From IMG/VR virus record IMGVR_UViG_3300045747_000498, positions 1 through 25,645 of that record: DNA of 25,645 nucleotides; one strand, written 5' to 3'. Source of the stretch: a virus. Position numbers and translations under genes: made by a program. Below are positions 11,436 to 25,644 of this stretch, one piece after another. The notes beneath the pieces are model-generated. The model had not been told where the DNA came from, ran no database searches, and saw nothing but the letters and a program-made list of their open reading frames with translations. Every line of letters begins with the position of its first letter. The first letter of the stretch is position 1.

Positions 11436-12158
11436 ATGCAACCACAGATCATCAGCGGATTCGACCCAGGCAGGCACAACGCCGACCTGAGCGCCACGGT
11501 CTCAAGGCTCGAGCGCGCCGCGGCGTACAAGGACCTCTCGACCGTGGTGATCGTCCCGGCCTTCGGCTCGATCCCGACTCGGGCTGTCGCCTCGTGGTTG
11601 AACATGTTCAATCCGCCTAACCAAAAGCTCGTGCGTCTGTTTGCCATCGGCATGGAGGTCGGCGACGCCTACAGCCGCACGATCGAGTCGATCCTGGCAC
11701 ACCCCGAGCTCAGCAAGTTCAAGTACATCTTGACGTTGGAGCACGACAACATGCCTCCGCCCGATGGGCTGGTGAACCTGCTGGCCTCCATGGAGGCGCA
11801 CCCTGAGTACGCGTGCATCGGCGGCCTCTACTTCACCAAGGGCGAAGGCGGTCAGCCGCAAATCTGGGGAAACCCGAACGAGCACCCGACCAACTTTAAG
11901 CCGTGCCCGCCCGACCCGACCGGCGGGCTCGTCGAGTGCTGCGGCACAGGCATGGGCTTCAACGTGTTCCGTACCGACATGTTCAAGGATGAGCGTCTGC
12001 GGCGTCCTTGGTTTCGGTCGGTCGCGTCGGCAGCTGAAGGCGTCGGGACCCAAGACCTCTACTTCTGGGCCGACGCGCGCAAGCACGGCTACCGGTGCGC
12101 CATCGACTGCAGCGTGAAAGTCGGCCACTACGATCTGACCAACGACATCATCTGGTGA
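11436..12158 (+). CDS. Glycosyltransferase, GT-A type
   Basis: A 240-residue protein with GT-A glycosyltransferase features. A Rossmann-like start (LSTVVIVPAFG, residues 35-44) leads to an acidic metal-binding motif LEHDN (101-105) at the end of a strand (KYILT), then ACIGGLYF (127-133), a GTGMGFNVFR segment (170-179), QDLYFWADARKHGY (206-219; the position of the usual catalytic acid) and a late VGHYD (229-233). These families transfer a sugar from a nucleotide-sugar donor to an acceptor. It starts three bases after the tail fibre stop and is followed by a methyltransferase, so it may modify a virion protein, the host surface glycan or phage DNA. The acceptor is unknown. Confidence 0.75.
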   Translation: MQPQIISGFDPGRHNADLSATVSRLERAAAYKDLSTVVIVPAFGSIPTRAVASWLNMFNPPNQKLVRLFAIGMEVGDAYSRTIESILAHPELSKFKYILTLEHDNMPPPDGLVNLLASMEAHPEYACIGGLYFTKGEGGQPQIWGNPNEHPTNFKPCPPDPTGGLVECCGTGMGFNVFRTDMFKDERLRRPWFRSVASAAEGVGTQDLYFWADARKHGYRCAIDCSVKVGHYDLTNDIIW

Positions 12159-12162
12159 TCAA

Positions 12163-12729
12163 ATGAGAGCTACCAAACTCGCGACCAAGCCCACTCGGAT
12201 CCAAGGCAAAGAGCTGAAGCTCGACCTGGGCTGCGGCGACAACAAGGCGCAGGGGTTCCTCGGCGTCGACAAGTTTGCCACGTCATCGACCGACTACACA
12301 TTCGACCTGCTCAAGTTCCCTTGGCCGATCGACGACGGCGCGTGCGCGACACTTCACTGCAGCCACTTCTTCGAGCACATCCCCGGTCTCGAACGGCCAG
12401 CGTTCATGGAAGAGTGCTACCGCGTCTTGAAGAAGGGCGGACAGCTCGTCATCATCACCCCGTACTGGAGCAGCGCCCGCGCCGTCCAAGACTTCACGCA
12501 CGCCTGGCCGCCGGTTGTCGAGACGAGCTTCCTGTACTTCAACAAGCAGTGGCGCGAGCAGAACAAGCTGACCCACGGCTTGTACACCATGACCTGCGAC
12601 TTCGACTTCGGCTACGGGTACGCGCTTGATGCTGAGACGGCCACCAAGCACGTCGAAGCTCAGCAGATGCGGATCAAGAATTACCTGAACGCCGCGGCTG
12701 ACATCCACGTGACGCTCACGAAGCGATGA
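12163..12729 (+). CDS. SAM-dependent class I methyltransferase
   Basis: A 188-residue protein with a clear Rossmann-fold methyltransferase layout: motif I LDLGCG (20-25), the acidic residue after strand 2 (VDK, D36), SHFFEHI (67-73) and YRVLKKGGQLVIITP (86-100, motif III region). This resembles the small methyltransferases often found in polysaccharide-biosynthesis clusters. The C-terminal part (about 101-188, with QDFTHAWPPVVETSFLYFN) should select the substrate. It starts four bases after the glycosyltransferase stop, which suggests the two act on the same product, for example methylating a transferred sugar. DNA or protein substrates cannot be excluded. Confidence 0.8.
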   Translation: MRATKLATKPTRIQGKELKLDLGCGDNKAQGFLGVDKFATSSTDYTFDLLKFPWPIDDGACATLHCSHFFEHIPGLERPAFMEECYRVLKKGGQLVIITPYWSSARAVQDFTHAWPPVVETSFLYFNKQWREQNKLTHGLYTMTCDFDFGYGYALDAETATKHVEAQQMRIKNYLNAAADIHVTLTKR

Positions 12730-12733
12730 TTGT

Positions 12734-13111
12734 GTGTTCCAGCAGTCGTCGTTCCAGGTCAACAGCTTCCAGCTGGGCGCCCCTGAGGCGGCGCCTGTCT
12801 ATTGGCCGTTCCAAAGCGACGCGTTCCAGTTCTACGGGTCGGCAAGCAGCGCGCCGACCGGGTTCGACCTTACCGACGGACTGCTGGTCCCAGACCCACG
12901 GTCGCTGCCTTGGGCATCGTGGGCTGGCGCTGTCACGGTAAATTTTTCAAGGTATAATCTGCCAAACTCTGTGGATGAGAGTTTGTGGCAAGTTTGGGCA
13001 ACTGAGCTATTCGCCATCCCCGGACTTGTTGAACAGGGTCTGCCAGACCCTAGAGCGTTCAACAGTGACTGGCGTGGGTGGGGCGTGGCTCTCATACTGG
13101 CCATGCAATGA
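12734..13111 (+). CDS. Small protein with FQ repeats, probable virion component
   Basis: A 125-residue protein starting at a GTG, four bases after the methyltransferase stop. No ATG lies in this frame near the start; the ATG at 12726 is in another frame and overlaps the upstream gene. The N-terminus has spaced FQ motifs (MFQQSSFQVNSFQ, PFQSDAFQ), a pattern seen in small phage proteins of unknown function. The C-terminal half contains SLWQVWATELFAIPGL and AFNSDWRGWG, likely amphipathic helices. A strong promoter-like element lies inside it. Its stop overlaps the next start as ATGA. I recognise no function. Confidence 0.6.
   Translation: MFQQSSFQVNSFQLGAPEAAPVYWPFQSDAFQFYGSASSAPTGFDLTDGLLVPDPRSLPWASWAGAVTVNFSRYNLPNSVDESLWQVWATELFAIPGLVEQGLPDPRAFNSDWRGWGVALILAMQ
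12930..12985 (+). promoter_or_regulatory. Candidate promoter P2 with 5' hairpin
   Basis: CTGTCA (12930-12935) and a perfect TATAAT (12953-12958) are separated by 17 bases, inside an AT-rich island of GC-rich coding DNA. CAAACTCT (12963-12970) pairs exactly with AGAGTTTG (12978-12985) across a 7-base loop, which would put a hairpin at the RNA 5' end. The 13 bases 12946-12958 match candidate P1 at 11 of 13 positions. It would drive the internal-virion genes starting at 13108. Confidence 0.55.
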
Positions 13112-14736
13112 CCTCTCCACTCAGCGCAGTTCAGCAGCAGCTTGACCGCCTTCGCAACGCGACGGGCGACATCAAAGTGCAGCAGCGAATGATGCCGCAG
13201 GGCCGATTTGACCTCAGCGGGATCCCTGGTCTTGATGGTGCGCTCCCGATGTACTGGAAGGCTCTGTCTGGGACGAACCTCGGGGAGATTCTTCCGATGC
13301 CCGCCACTCCGGTCCCGGACGCCGGCGTAGGGGCGACGTCCCCTGATGCGGTGGGCGCTGGTGCGGGGGTCGGCTCAAGCCCTGGCGGCGACGGTGGGAT
13401 CAGCGGCGACTCCGGCGCTTCGGCGCCAAGTGGCATCGGCGCACCGGGGTCAGCCACGGGCGGAGTCACTCCGGGCATGGCGCTTGGCTTGGTTGGCGCA
13501 ATCGCCAACTCCAACCCAATCAGCGCCTTGGTCTCGATCGCGCAGATGATCAATGCGCCACCTGTCACCATGGCTACCGTCAGCCAGGCGACCCCTCCGC
13601 TGTCGCCGCCGCTCGACCCCATCTCGTCGTTTGTCCCGCCGGTCGACGCGGTGTCTGACGCGCCCGGCATGCCGTCGATCGGCGAGGCACCAGCCCCTGT
13701 GGGTTTGACGCCTTCTGTCAGCATGACAATCAGTCCGGATTCTGAGGACGCGGTGTCTGTCACGCCTAACACTCCGAACGACACGGCAATCACGCCGAGC
13801 GAAGACGCAACGCCGGTAGCACCCGACGCTCCGCCGAGTGAAGGCGACTCCGCCGCCGCCGCTGCAGCCGCAGCCGCAGCCGCAGCCGCAGCCGCAGCAA
13901 TCGGTCCCCCAGCGCCTGGTGACGACGCGTCTGCACCTCCGGGCGACGCTCCCGGGGATGGTCCTGGCGCAGCTCCTGGTGCTGCGGCGGCCGCTGCAGC
14001 TGCTTCAGGCGCTGCTGGAGCTGCGGCAGCGGCCGCTGCAGCTGCTTCGCCTTCAGGCGACGGTGACGGATCTGCTGCCGCCGCGCCTTCAGGCGATGGC
14101 GGCATAGGCGTCGGTGTTGGCGACGGATCAGGCGACGCTCCCGGTGACGGCGGCATAGGCGTCGGTGTTGGTGACGGTGGCATAGGCGTCGGCGACGGTG
14201 GCATAGGCGTCGGCGACGGTGGCATAGGCGTCGGCGACGGGTCGGGCATCGGCGACGGCGGCATAGGCGTAGGTGATGGTGGCGACGGCGGCATAGGCGT
14301 AGGTGATGGTGGCGACGGCGGTGGCGGAGGTGGCGGAGGTGGCGGAGGTGGCGGTGGCTGCTTCTTGACGACCGCGGTCATGAAGTCGCACGGCAAGGAC
14401 GACGACTCGCTCGAGCTCGAACTGATGCGCGGCTTCCGAGACCATTACATGATGCAGCACCCTGAGCTTGCCGACCTAGTGCACCACTACTACAACCTTG
14501 CCCCGAAGGTCGTTGCGGGCCTCGACGCGCACCCGGACGCTGACTCGATCTATAGCCACCTTCGTGAGAAGTTCATCGAGCCAGGGCTCCGGCACGTCTT
14601 GGCCGACCGCCCAGAGCACGCGCTCAAGACCTATGCCGACATGCTCAAGTTCGTCGGCCCAATCGCCGACAGCGCGGCCGGCGACTTGCTGGGCGCCGGA
14701 GGCCACGCGGTCAGCAACATGTTCAAAGGACTCTAA
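13108..14736 (+). CDS. Low-complexity virion-region protein with CFI-box-like C-terminal domain
   Basis: A 542-residue protein started at the ATG at 13108, which overlaps the previous stop (ATGA); an upstream in-frame GTG at 13078 is less likely. Residues about 1-60 are a charged helical start (SPLSAVQQQLDRLRNATGD). Residues about 60-400 are Pro/Ala/Gly/Asp low complexity with poly-Ala runs and repeated GIGVGDG units. A poly-Gly hinge (about 404-417) leads to C418 of CFLTTA and a folded helical domain (418-542: LELELMRGFRDHYM, LADLVHHYYNLAPKVV, GLRHVLADRPEHALKTY). The Gly-run followed by CF(I/L)xTA resembles the CFI-box C-terminal domain of bacterial and phage proteins; the function is unknown. 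A virion or ejection role is inferred from its neighbours. Confidence 0.65.
   Translation: MTSPLSAVQQQLDRLRNATGDIKVQQRMMPQGRFDLSGIPGLDGALPMYWKALSGTNLGEILPMPATPVPDAGVGATSPDAVGAGAGVGSSPGGDGGISGDSGASAPSGIGAPGSATGGVTPGMALGLVGAIANSNPISALVSIAQMINAPPVTMATVSQATPPLSPPLDPISSFVPPVDAVSDAPGMPSIGEAPAPVGLTPSVSMTISPDSEDAVSVTPNTPNDTAITPSEDATPVAPDAPPSEGDSAAAAAAAAAAAAAAAAIGPPAPGDDASAPPGDAPGDGPGAAPGAAAAAAAASGAAGAAAAAAAAASPSGDGDGSAAAAPSGDGGIGVGVGDGSGDAPGDGGIGVGVGDGGIGVGDGGIGVGDGGIGVGDGSGIGDGGIGVGDGGDGGIGVGDGGDGGGGGGGGGGGGGGCFLTTAVMKSHGKDDDSLELELMRGFRDHYMMQHPELADLVHHYYNLAPKVVAGLDAHPDADSIYSHLREKFIEPGLRHVLADRPEHALKTYADMLKFVGPIADSAAGDLLGAGGHAVSNMFKGL
13862..14048 (+). repeat. Poly-Ala coding repeats (GCAGCC tract and 20-bp duplication)
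   Basis: A (GCAGCC)n tract at about 13864-13898 encodes poly-Ala. Bases 13987-14006 and 14029-14048 are an exact 20-bp direct repeat, GCGGCCGCTGCAGCTGCTTC, 42 bases apart and in frame. These are simple-sequence expansions inside the low-complexity linker. Confidence 0.7.
14098..14358 (+). repeat. Minisatellite array coding GIGVGDG and poly-Gly
   Basis: Three tandem 21-bp units (14179-14199, 14200-14220, 14221-14241; the first two identical, the third differing at its last base) encode GIGVGDG. An exact 30-bp tandem pair follows at 14251-14280 and 14281-14310. A run of 9-bp Gly units (about 14312-14358) leads to the CFI-like domain. All units are multiples of three, so slippage would keep the frame. 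Confidence 0.85.
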
Positions 14737-22320: not shown

Positions 22321-22357
22321 CGTCTATTGTACAACAGACGCCGTCTGATGATGTCAA
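22321..22357 (-). promoter_or_regulatory. Dyad-rich candidate promoter/operator upstream of dCMP deaminase
   Basis: On the minus strand TTGACA (22357-22352) overlaps the stop of the TS-fold gene and TACAAT (22331-22326) follows, with a 20-base spacer, longer than ideal. Two inverted repeats overlap here: a 20-base palindrome with one mismatched pair (22321-22340) and the perfect CAGACG-c-CGTCTG dyad (22335-22347). Three CGTCT-type half-sites thus alternate in direction, like an operator. An attenuator hairpin is an alternative. Confidence 0.4.
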
Positions 22358-23193
22358 TCAGCCTTGGGTTCCCACCAACGCAGCTCGTGGCCCGGCGACG
22401 TGTCGCGCAGCTCGCGAAGCGTCTCCATCAGTTTGTGTTCCCTCATCCACAGGTCTGCGGGTGTCGCAACAGCTGGCAGAAGCACACTGCTCTTGTCATT
22501 GAGGCTTTCGATCGCCTTCGACCACTCGGGCTCATAGAGGTGGCTCGATGCAGCCGTCAGGTGCAAGACGCCCGGCGCCGTGATGCCGATCGGCAGACTT
22601 TCAGGGTGAGTTGCGTTGGCGACGGCCGCAGCCTCGTTGAGCCGACAGCAGATCAAGTGAGCGACCATGCTGAAGCTGAAGACGTCATACGGCCAACCGA
22701 GCCACAAGTCGTTCGATCGCATGAAGACGTGCGCGTGAAGTTTGTTGTGCCGCTTCCTGAAGACCATGGCGACCGTGCACGGCGTGTCCTTTGTCGGCGG
22801 CGGGTTGGGTCGCCAGATCGTCAGCGCGGCTTGGCGCGTCTCGCTGTCAGCCAAAAGCTTGCCCACCACGTAGTCGAGCTGGGACACGATCGGCGGCCCG
22901 TACGCCCCGAACAACGTCTGACCGTCATCGCTGAACTCGGCCATACGCTTGGCATACGGCTCGACACCGCTGAGCTGATTGCTGCCGCTGAGGATCCAAT
23001 AGGCCTCGGCCACCATGAAGCGGTAGCTGAGTGCGCGGACCCTCGACAACAGCACAGGCCTGCGCATGTCGATGTGGTCGGTGCGGTGTGCAACCTCAAG
23101 GGTTGGTTTACCTCGTGGCGCAACTTCGTCGCCGTCAAGTACGTCATTGATTGCGCTGCGCCATGCGGTGGTAGCTGTGTCAATTGCTTTCAT
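22354..23193 (-). CDS. Thymidylate synthase-fold enzyme, predicted dCMP-specific (hydroxymethylase-like)
   Basis: A 279-residue member of the thymidylate synthase / dCMP hydroxymethylase family, which adds a one-carbon unit from methylene-tetrahydrofolate to the pyrimidine C5. Visible equivalents of key residues are E63 and W66 (AEAYWIL), Y98, R120, catalytic C139 (TPC), R159-S160-x-D162 (MRSND), and H218 and Y220 (SHLY). The position that selects dUMP in thymidylate synthase, the Asn after LG-x-P-F, is D170 here (LGWPYD). The same exchange is seen in T4 dCMP hydroxymethylase, which also shares MRSND. I therefore infer dCMP as the substrate. The C-terminus lacks the usual hydrophobic end of ThyA. 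It overlaps the upstream kinase gene (ATGA). A plain thymidylate synthase remains possible. Confidence 0.8.
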   Translation of the reverse strand: MKAIDTATTAWRSAINDVLDGDEVAPRGKPTLEVAHRTDHIDMRRPVLLSRVRALSYRFMVAEAYWILSGSNQLSGVEPYAKRMAEFSDDGQTLFGAYGPPIVSQLDYVVGKLLADSETRQAALTIWRPNPPPTKDTPCTVAMVFRKRHNKLHAHVFMRSNDLWLGWPYDVFSFSMVAHLICCRLNEAAAVANATHPESLPIGITAPGVLHLTAASSHLYEPEWSKAIESLNDKSSVLLPAVATPADLWMREHKLMETLRELRDTSPGHELRWWEPKAD

Positions 23194-24092
23194 AGGAGCC
23201 TCTTGAGAACATCGAGCAGCACGTAGCGTGCTGGGTGGTTGATTCGCTTGTGAAGCCGAGGGTGGGGTACTTGTGCAGCAGCGTCGACCCCTTCAGCAGC
23301 GAGTCGCGCGAGCGCTGTCAGTCCTAATGCGACAACTGGCCGCTCGACACCGCGCAGCCAACCAAGATCATTGTCAGTGCTGACCCATAACAAGTGTCGT
23401 TCGTGGATGCCTTCAAGACGCAACTGCTCGGTCAACCAATGACTTGTGCTTTGGTCGTCGAGGTCGCCAAATGGCCATTGGTACGGGTGCGAACCCAGTT
23501 TCATACTGTCGCCCACCAACACGACCCTGCCGTCGAGGTTGCCCGCGCTGAGGACGTCGAGCCGGTGGGGCTGTAGGTAGGCCAAGCCGTCGGGCTCAAG
23601 GTCGGGTGTGCGCAGATCGTAGTCGGCGACCGGCAGCTGCGTGCGAGAGCGCAAGCCGTAGTAGTCAGTGTAGACTTGGTAGAGCTGCGCCGACGTCTTG
23701 AGGTACTCCTCGCCCTTGCGCTTGGCCCACGAGGCGCTGACGTGCTCCCAGCCGGGGTCGCAGAGCACCACGTGCGCGCCGCAGCGCATCGCCAGCCGCT
23801 CGAGCTGCAGTGTGATGATCGGGCCCAGTCGGTCGACACCGTCGCGGAACGCACGCCCGTAGATCGGCTCGCTCAGCCAGCTGCGGTCCAAGATCACGTG
23901 CTTCTCGCCAAGCAGCGCCGGCAACATCGAGTCGATGTAGCGGCCGGCCAGCTCGGCCGGGTCGGTGACCTCCTTGTAGGGTCCGTGATGCACAACCATC
24001 GCGCCGAGTTCCTTGGCCAGCTCCACGGCCAGCGTCGACTTGCCCGACCCGTCCGCGCCTTCGAGGATGAGGACTCGCTTGCAGTGAGTCAC
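23190..24092 (-). CDS. P-loop nucleotide kinase fused to a UDG-superfamily-like domain
   Basis: A 300-residue two-domain protein started at the GTG at 24092, which overlaps the previous stop in GTGA; the longer ORF start lacks support. Domain 1 (about 1-160) is a thymidylate-kinase-type P-loop enzyme: Walker A GADGSGKST (12-20), DRSWLSEPIYG (69-79) and a basic lid region (SWAKRKGEEY). It should phosphorylate a deoxynucleotide, or a base in DNA as known for some phage kinases. Domain 2 (about 187-300) looks like a uracil-DNA-glycosylase fold: VLVGDS (191-196), PFGDLDD (207-213), WVSTDN (236-241), RPVVALGLTALARL (251-264) and VPHPRLHKR (275-283), matching the late His-Pro motif. Whether domain 2 cuts bases is unknown. 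Confidence 0.75.
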   Translation of the reverse strand: MTHCKRVLILEGADGSGKSTLAVELAKELGAMVVHHGPYKEVTDPAELAGRYIDSMLPALLGEKHVILDRSWLSEPIYGRAFRDGVDRLGPIITLQLERLAMRCGAHVVLCDPGWEHVSASWAKRKGEEYLKTSAQLYQVYTDYYGLRSRTQLPVADYDLRTPDLEPDGLAYLQPHRLDVLSAGNLDGRVVLVGDSMKLGSHPYQWPFGDLDDQSTSHWLTEQLRLEGIHERHLLWVSTDNDLGWLRGVERPVVALGLTALARLAAEGVDAAAQVPHPRLHKRINHPARYVLLDVLKRLL

Positions 24093-24573: not shown

Positions 24574-25644
24574 CTAGGGTTGATTGTCTTGCAAGCGAAG
24601 CTTGCGCCGATTCCACGAGACGTCGGCCGAGGTCGCCTTCGACTCCGGGAACTCGGTTCGTATCGTAGCGAGAATCTCGTCGGTGGACTTGCCCTCGAGC
24701 AGCAGGACCCTCGTGCGATACCCGATGCCGAGGCGCGGCGTGCGTGGCCCCGTCGGTCCACCGCCAGTGCGTGGCGCGCGCTGCGCCTTGGGCTCTGGTA
24801 CGGTCGGTGCCCACTCCGGCGATACGGCCGTGTCGGCCCAGGGCTGGCGCCAAAGGAGCTCGGTAGACGGGTTCTCCGGGTCGCGCAGGTCGACGACTCG
24901 CGTCTCGATTATGCGGCGTAGCTTCCCGCTCGTTTCCAGGCCGTCCTTGACCGCAGTTGCGAGCCAGCGGCCGACCGGCGGCATGACCGCTCGGGCCAGC
25001 TCGCGCGTGGCGGCGTCGAACCCGCGCTCGGCGGTCTGCCAGTCGGGCGGAAGGCCGACCAAGGCGAGCCACTCGGCCCACGTGAGCATGCGCGGCTCAG
25101 TCGGGTGCAGGCGCGTGAAGGACGCCAGCATGACGGGCGCTGGCTGGTCGGGCCGCAGGCGCTGTGTGACAGCGAGCGGTGCGCCGCCGCCGTTGAGGCG
25201 CTTGACCTCGTGGGTCTCCATCGACTCGTACGCCGTGCGTAGTCGGCCTTTGTGGGCATCGGACCGTGCCCAGAGCTCCTTCCAGAAGGGGTTCAGATCT
25301 GGGGTAGCGATCTTGGACACGACACGCTTGGGCGCCTTCTTGAGCGCCTGCGCGACGGTCGTGGTCTTCGTCAGCTCCGGCCACACGAGTGGATACTGGT
25401 GGGCGATCAGGAACATGCGCTGCCGGCGCTGCGGCACGCCGAGATACTGGTTGTCCTGTAGCAGGATCGTGACCTGGTACCCTGCCTCGTTCCAACGCTT
25501 GGCTTGCTCGAGGACGAAATCGCGCCCGTGGCGCCATGCGTTCGTGACGGACTCCCAGCACCACGCCTTGGGGCGGATGATCAGCCCGGCCGTGACGAGC
25601 GACGTCACGCAGTCGAGGCGCTGGTCCTTCGACCAGTGCGCCAT
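24574..25644 (-). CDS. C5-cytosine DNA methyltransferase, C-terminal part (cut by window edge)
   Basis: At least 356 residues of a DNA (cytosine-5) methyltransferase. Visible motifs, counting from the last in-window ATG: WESV (30-33) at the position of the ENV motif, with Ser for Asn; GVPQRRQRMFLIA (69-81, QRR motif VIII); a target-recognition stretch (about 85-180); PRMLTWAEWLALVGLPPDW (184-202, motif IX) and AVMPPVGRWLATAV (219-232, motif X). The SAM site and catalytic PC motif would be further upstream, outside the window, so the gene is probably incomplete. A C-terminal extension (306-350: LLLEGKSTDEILATIRTEFP and VSWNRRKLR) looks like a small helical DNA-binding tail. It is eight bases from the MazG-like gene. 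Confidence 0.8.
   Translation of the reverse strand: MAHWSKDQRLDCVTSLVTAGLIIRPKAWCWESVTNAWRHGRDFVLEQAKRWNEAGYQVTILLQDNQYLGVPQRRQRMFLIAHQYPLVWPELTKTTTVAQALKKAPKRVVSKIATPDLNPFWKELWARSDAHKGRLRTAYESMETHEVKRLNGGGAPLAVTQRLRPDQPAPVMLASFTRLHPTEPRMLTWAEWLALVGLPPDWQTAERGFDAATRELARAVMPPVGRWLATAVKDGLETSGKLRRIIETRVVDLRDPENPSTELLWRQPWADTAVSPEWAPTVPEPKAQRAPRTGGGPTGPRTPRLGIGYRTRVLLLEGKSTDEILATIRTEFPESKATSADVSWNRRKLRLQDNQP

Follow-up and report, generated by a model that had tools for sequence, protein, structure and literature searches.

The window, as the whole 25,645-nt stretch of IMG/VR record IMGVR_UViG_3300045747_000498 is called here, is part of a virus genome of which only these 25.6 kb are visible. 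It includes a tight minus-strand operon of five genes that predict a C5-cytosine DNA methyltransferase-like protein, a MazG-type pyrophosphohydrolase, a P-loop kinase, a thymidylate synthase (TS) homologue in fourth place, and a dCMP deaminase (Table 1). Start and stop codons overlap at the MazG/kinase and kinase/TS junctions, with the stop codon of the kinase gene lying over the ATG of the TS homologue. The true gene for the TS homologue is on the minus strand, and the plus-strand reading of the same segment is an unrelated chance open reading frame. The C-terminal domain of the kinase is conserved and weakly resembles the uracil-DNA-glycosylase superfamily, with 4 of 25 members matching PF03167 (best E 1.1e-4); it is missing from the short kinase of ct3Et533. 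Elsewhere in the window, a plus-strand segment encodes a protein in which extended low-complexity repeats rich in Ala, Gly and Asp precede a compact domain that begins CFLTTAV.

Table 1. Features of the window and of related loci (positions without a locus prefix are those of the window).
Feature	Position	Strand	Remarks
dCMP deaminase, 161 aa	21820..22305	-	HAE ... PCxxC zinc motif; median 62% identity in relatives
dCMP 5-hydroxymethylase (predicted; thymidylate-synthase fold), 279 aa	22354..23193	-	E63, Y98, R120, D136, C139, T140, S160, D162, D170, H218, Y220
P-loop nucleoside-monophosphate kinase, ~300 aa	23190..24092	-	GTG start; PHROG 'thymidylate kinase'
Kinase C-terminal domain	23193..23609	-	weakly like uracil-DNA-glycosylase superfamily
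MazG/PRA-PH-type nucleotide pyrophosphohydrolase, 158 aa	24089..24565	-	from ATG 24565; candidate dCTP-lowering enzyme
C5-cytosine DNA methyltransferase-like protein, C-terminal part	24574..25644	-	cut by contig end; intact relative in L004
Relative of the C5-methyltransferase	L004:5554-6627		catalytic PC motif kept
Class I SAM methyltransferase, examples	L004:4664-5395; L009:9650-10474		upstream of cassette
PLP module	L083:2746-4820, L086, L089, L095:2835-4992, L098, L100		PALP-type PLP enzyme (phrog_7093), ~390-aa protein, phrog_13881 protein
Glycosyltransferase-like protein	L109:3402-4373	+	weak (PF13524, E 0.0066)
GT-A-like glycosyltransferase and small SAM methyltransferase	11436-12729	+	phrog_12406, weak (glycosyltransferase)
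Low-complexity repeats and compact domain	13078-14736	+	

The 279-aa product of the TS homologue matches Pfam Thymidylat_synt (PF00303) at 55.3 bits, above the cut-off, and several PHROG 'thymidylate synthase' families. Its relatives are named 'thymidylate synthase' in the databases, and two phage records already carry relatives under the name 'pyrimidine hmase'. The AlphaFold2 model has a mean pLDDT of 95.5 and a pTM of 0.93. Its best matches among solved folds are four entries of the CMP hydroxymethylase MilA (Z 26.1-26.2, 28-29% identity), with thymidylate synthases reaching Z values of 23.1 at most. MilA was also matched by phmmer (1.8e-15), and a profile search gave 6.6e-35 for MilA versus 4e-21 for E. 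coli ThyA. Foldseek agrees with the profile search on MilA as the best solved relative.

Alignment with the fetched E. coli ThyA and T4 gp42 sequences pairs E63, C139, R159, S160, D162, D170, H218 and Y220 with ThyA E58, C146, R166, S167, D169, N177, H207 and Y209. An earlier note, made from the DNA alone, had listed E63, C139, R159, D162, H218 and Y220 as kept and D170 as present, and its numbering is exact. It had also proposed that D170 occupies the column of the uracil-binding Asn177. No shift from that column was seen, as LG-W-PYDVF pairs with LG-L-PFNIA in ThyA and FG-F-RNDYA in T4, where the column holds gp42 D179. A chance Asp or a sequencing error is ruled out, as every one of the 89 clade relatives examined has this Asp and an alignment of 52 sequences shows no variation there. 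An Asn-to-Asp exchange in this column turns thymidylate synthase to dCMP (literature cited in PMC8670742), and in the MetaGPA study ThyA positions 147 and 177 were those that best separated modified-cytosine from unmodified phage contigs (PMC8670742).

Position 170 alone points to cytosine, and the residues three before (C-3) and one after (C+1) the catalytic Cys appear to tell which chemistry follows. These two sites and the base-selecting residue were read together as a three-site code and compared with enzymes whose chemistry is known or strongly implied. The code is L/H/N in ThyA (Leu143, His147, Asn177), D/N/N in the dUMP hydroxymethylases of SPO1, M6, phiW-14 and Vi01, and D/T/D in the T4 dCMP hydroxymethylase gp42. 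It is N/P/D in AXL1 and PaMx28, which are related to Xp12, a phage with 5-methylcytosine, and were used in place of the Xp12 genome (MT664984). The window protein carries D/T/D (D136/T140/D170), as do Xp15 and Nebulous, where a gene for a carbamoyltransferase or a glycosyltransferase lies close by. D/T/D was found in 89 of 89 clade relatives read, a sample partly picked via a motif containing D136; ten relatives collected before, with no such motif demanded, were also invariant. Among the references used, the three residues separate makers of dTMP, 5-hydroxymethyl-dUMP, 5-hydroxymethyl-dCMP and, probably, 5-methyl-dCMP.

Other positions extend this picture. In T4 dCMP hydroxymethylase the C-3 residue, Asp145, has been named as the one that activates the water; the D145N enzyme is inactive, and formation of 5-hydroxymethyl-dCMP needs both Asp145 (equivalent to D136) and Asp179 (D170) (PMC6400193). 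The pyrimidine hydroxymethylase signature given in that study includes Asp or Glu at C-3, found here as D136 with C139, and a counterpart of T4 Tyr96, found as Y98. It also includes Ser or Thr two residues before the Tyr (T4 Ser94), where the whole clade has Gly (G96), the one departure from the signature and a point against a dCMP hydroxymethylase of the T4 kind. Since the counterpart is Gly in M6, phiW-14 and Vi01 and Ala in SPO1, this last residue is not defining for hydroxymethylases in general. At the positions of MilA K133 and A176, which bear on the preference for CMP or dCMP, the window protein has residues of the deoxynucleotide type, R120 and S160, which favour dCMP (PMC5175136).

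The clade appears to be distinct from T4 gp42 within the TS superfamily. In a tree with very long reference branches it lies outside the T4/Nebulous/Xp15 branch and nearer to SPO1, M6, phiW-14 and LuckyBarnes than to T4, a placement that would suit a dUMP hydroxymethylase of the SPO1/M6 type, replacing thymine. Such an activity is hardly credible here, because those four all have Asn at both the base position and C+1 in place of Asp and Thr, and because TasI and Tru1I, whose sites consist of A and T alone, cut DNA of the related phage AXL3. There is also only a slight chance that the protein is a 5-hydroxy-dCMP synthase, as described for Mosigvirus (RB69, NP; PMC13390438), a TS-fold dCMP enzyme whose crystals contained dCMP together with FAD. 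That enzyme (9iqc) matches the window model at Z 22.5 and has the same Thr and Asp at C+1 and the base position, but has Glu at C-3, Asn for the folate-binding Asp169 and Phe for Tyr209, where the window protein has D136, D162 and Y220 like folate users and is closer to MilA.

Relatives of the gene are encoded in 241 viral contig stretches, of which 80 were fetched, and gene content was counted in 71 distinct loci that extend 4 kb or more upstream. The MazG-kinase-TS-dCMP deaminase cassette recurs, with MazG in 61, the kinase in 50 and the deaminase in 59 of the 71 loci. Asp177 together with co-occurrence of PRA-PH and dCMP deaminase is known to track modified-cytosine phage contigs (PMC8670742). 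The MazG-type protein is a candidate dCTP-lowering enzyme, and the kinase is a probable 5-hydroxymethyl-dCMP kinase. The operon of the window thus combines a C5-cytosine methyltransferase gene with that for a predicted dCMP hydroxymethylase. A hydroxymethylated C5 cannot receive a methyl group at the same carbon, and the C5-methyltransferase thus fits poorly with complete C5 substitution, which counts against the hydroxymethylase interpretation.

The closest isolated phages, AXL3 (Stenotrophomonas) and PW916 (Pseudoxanthomonas), encode proteins ~50% identical to the window protein with the same D/T/D code, in the same cassette. For AXL3, 35 of 37 restriction enzymes failed on the DNA and only TasI and Tru1I cut; the authors suspected an altered G or C, yet drew a thymidylate pathway (PMC7504290). 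Half of the AXL3 genome already contains 11 KpnI and 6 Eam1105I sites, and both enzymes fail on AXL3 DNA. In the same laboratory both cut DNA of AXL1 partially, and AXL1 and PaMx28 are related to Xp12 (PMC9206674), whose 5-methylcytosine DNA is cut completely by KpnI (PMC7653180). AXL3 DNA therefore carries a modification that is not 5-methylcytosine, in keeping with the D/T/D code, though it could in principle sit on G, and these data belong to a relative at ~50% identity, not to the window phage.

AXL3, PW916 and two clade contigs encode ThyX, so that thymidylate can be made otherwise there. Dihydrofolate reductase (DHFR) was found in none of the clade genomes searched, and AXL1 and PaMx28 each have one; the window, a partial contig, has neither ThyX nor DHFR. 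Hydroxymethylation gives back tetrahydrofolate and methylation gives back dihydrofolate.

These data bear on two further possibilities. One is a normal or relaxed thymidylate synthase that, as the AXL3 authors suggested for the relative, turns dUMP from the adjacent dCMP deaminase into dTMP; this would agree with the adjoining deaminase gene and the database names. It is very unlikely given the effect of the Asn-to-Asp exchange, the replacement of the equivalents of Leu143 and His147 as well (Asp and Thr in the window protein), and the ThyX of close relatives. A dCMP methylase of the Xp12 type, forming 5-methyl-dCMP by hydride transfer and thus DNA with 5-methylcytosine, would share the base-selecting Asp of AXL1 and PaMx28, and the earlier note had left the product as either hydroxymethyl or methyl. 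The methyl alternative is now improbable: the window protein has the Asp/Thr of T4 at the sites where AXL1 and PaMx28 have Asn/Pro, T4 D145N is unable to hydroxymethylate, the DHFR of the AXL1 and PaMx28 operons has no counterpart in the clade genomes searched, and KpnI fails on AXL3 DNA. D136, the lack of DHFR and the KpnI resistance of AXL3 together favour the hydroxymethyl half of that proposal.

From the residues, fold and cassette we infer that the gene very probably encodes a folate-dependent dCMP 5-hydroxymethylase and that the phage DNA carries a C5-substituted cytosine. The suggestion in the earlier note that the enzyme acts on dCMP and that the phage may carry modified cytosine thus gains support from the residue code, the MilA matches, the cassette and the AXL3 restriction data. 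In the predicted reaction Cys139 would attack C6 of dCMP, Asp170 would select and protonate the cytosine, and E63 would activate methylene-tetrahydrofolate. Hydration of the C5 methylene intermediate by a water placed by Asp136 would then yield 5-hydroxymethyl-dCMP and tetrahydrofolate. The MazG-type pyrophosphohydrolase and dCMP deaminase may set the dCTP/dCMP pool, and the P-loop kinase would take hydroxymethyl-dCMP towards the triphosphate. The polymerase would then build DNA with a C5 substituent on most or all cytosines, blocking host restriction enzymes. In relatives, the enzyme of a fixed slot upstream of the cassette probably caps the hydroxymethyl group.

This upstream slot holds a class I SAM methyltransferase in 57 of the 71 loci. 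It is the most conserved locus protein, with a median identity of 71% compared with 49% for the hydroxymethylase (L002-L006, L008-L010, L041-L120), and was found in only 5 of 50,697 phage records, all five of which also hold a clade hydroxymethylase. Six of the 71 loci have the PLP module in its place and none has both; the ~390-aa protein of this module has no Pfam or PHROG match. In one relative, L109, the slot holds a weakly glycosyltransferase-like protein. The window contig stops inside the C5-methyltransferase gene, short of the slot, and the profile of the AXL3-type SAM methyltransferase has no match in the window. In five loci that include the C5-methyltransferase (L004, L052, L067, L082 and L110) the SAM methyltransferase lies just past it; none is shown at L096, the nearest tree neighbour of the window (long branch). 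When the model of the SAM methyltransferase was used as a fold query, the matches were to the broad class I methyltransferase fold, with UbiG, CmoM and HEN1 as three of many, and do not point to any one acceptor.

In T4, Xp15 and Mosigvirus, hydroxymethyl- or hydroxy-cytosine is known or predicted to receive a glucose, carbamoyl or arabinose cap. The SAM methyltransferase and PLP module may, by analogy and from their position, be tailoring or capping enzymes. A more specific and rather doubtful proposal is that the clade makes an undescribed hypermodified cytosine, in which the SAM methyltransferase would O-methylate 5-hydroxymethyl-dC, giving 5-methoxymethyl-dC, or, in a minority, the PLP module would convert it instead. 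It draws on the gene position, high conservation, strict co-occurrence and mutual exclusion of the modules. Literature searches on methoxymethylcytosine in phages, and on 5-hydroxymethylcytosine with methyltransferase and thymidylate synthase, returned nothing on the cassette. Glycosyltransferases of the T4, LuckyBarnes and Nebulous types and the Xp15 carbamoyltransferase were not found near the gene in the 89 relatives. Among structural genes of the window, a GT-A-like glycosyltransferase gene adjoins one for a small SAM methyltransferase. This pair was rejected as a source of second-step enzymes, since neither was found close to the gene in the relatives and the small methyltransferase shows only marginal similarity to that of the cassette.

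The kind of enzyme was already known, and the link between Asp177 and modified cytosine has been published (MetaGPA, PMC8670742). What is new is the separation of methylase from hydroxymethylase, the connection with the restriction behaviour of AXL3 DNA, and the candidate tailoring slot with its interchangeable enzymes. Under a generic ThyA label, a probable cytosine-modifying enzyme goes unseen in isolated phages for which a thymidylate pathway has been drawn, as well as in ~240 stretches of viral contigs. A hydroxymethylase would be a concrete explanation for the restriction resistance of AXL3, until now unexplained. New leads come from the clade, which is large and mostly uncultured, and from the partner genes that accompany the hydroxymethylase. 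Among these, the conserved, interchangeable upstream enzymes can be tested as candidates for a new second step in hydroxymethylcytosine modification.

Comparison with known systems places the clade as follows. T4 gp42 shares the fold, catalytic set, D/T/D code and the company of a dCMP deaminase and dNMP kinase, but is only 23% identical to the clade profile in hhalign, falls on a separate branch of the long-branched tree, and has Ser94 and Arg124 where the clade has Gly and Gln; a T4-type glucosyltransferase is not near the clade gene. MilA, the CMP 5-hydroxymethylase of Streptomyces rimofaciens (PDB 5b6d, 5jnh), is the closest solved structure (28% identity over ~250 residues) and has Asp/Thr/Asp, but prefers ribo-CMP and has a large C-terminal region that the window protein lacks. 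AXL3 gp28 and its PW916 counterpart, annotated 'thymidylate synthase' or 'deoxyuridylate hydroxymethyltransferase', differ in having the SAM methyltransferase in the upstream slot and a cassette without the C5-methyltransferase. The MetaGPA contigs (PMC8670742) also combine Asp177 thymidylate synthases with PRA-PH, dCMP deaminase and modified cytosine, but their validated second step is a 5hmC carbamoyltransferase, none of which was found in the clade loci. AXL1 gp63 and PaMx28 ThyA, predicted from kinship with Xp12 to be dCMP methylases, share the base-selecting Asp, and the Mosigvirus synthase shares the TS fold and the residues at C+1 and the base position but has lost the folate-binding Asp169 and Tyr209.
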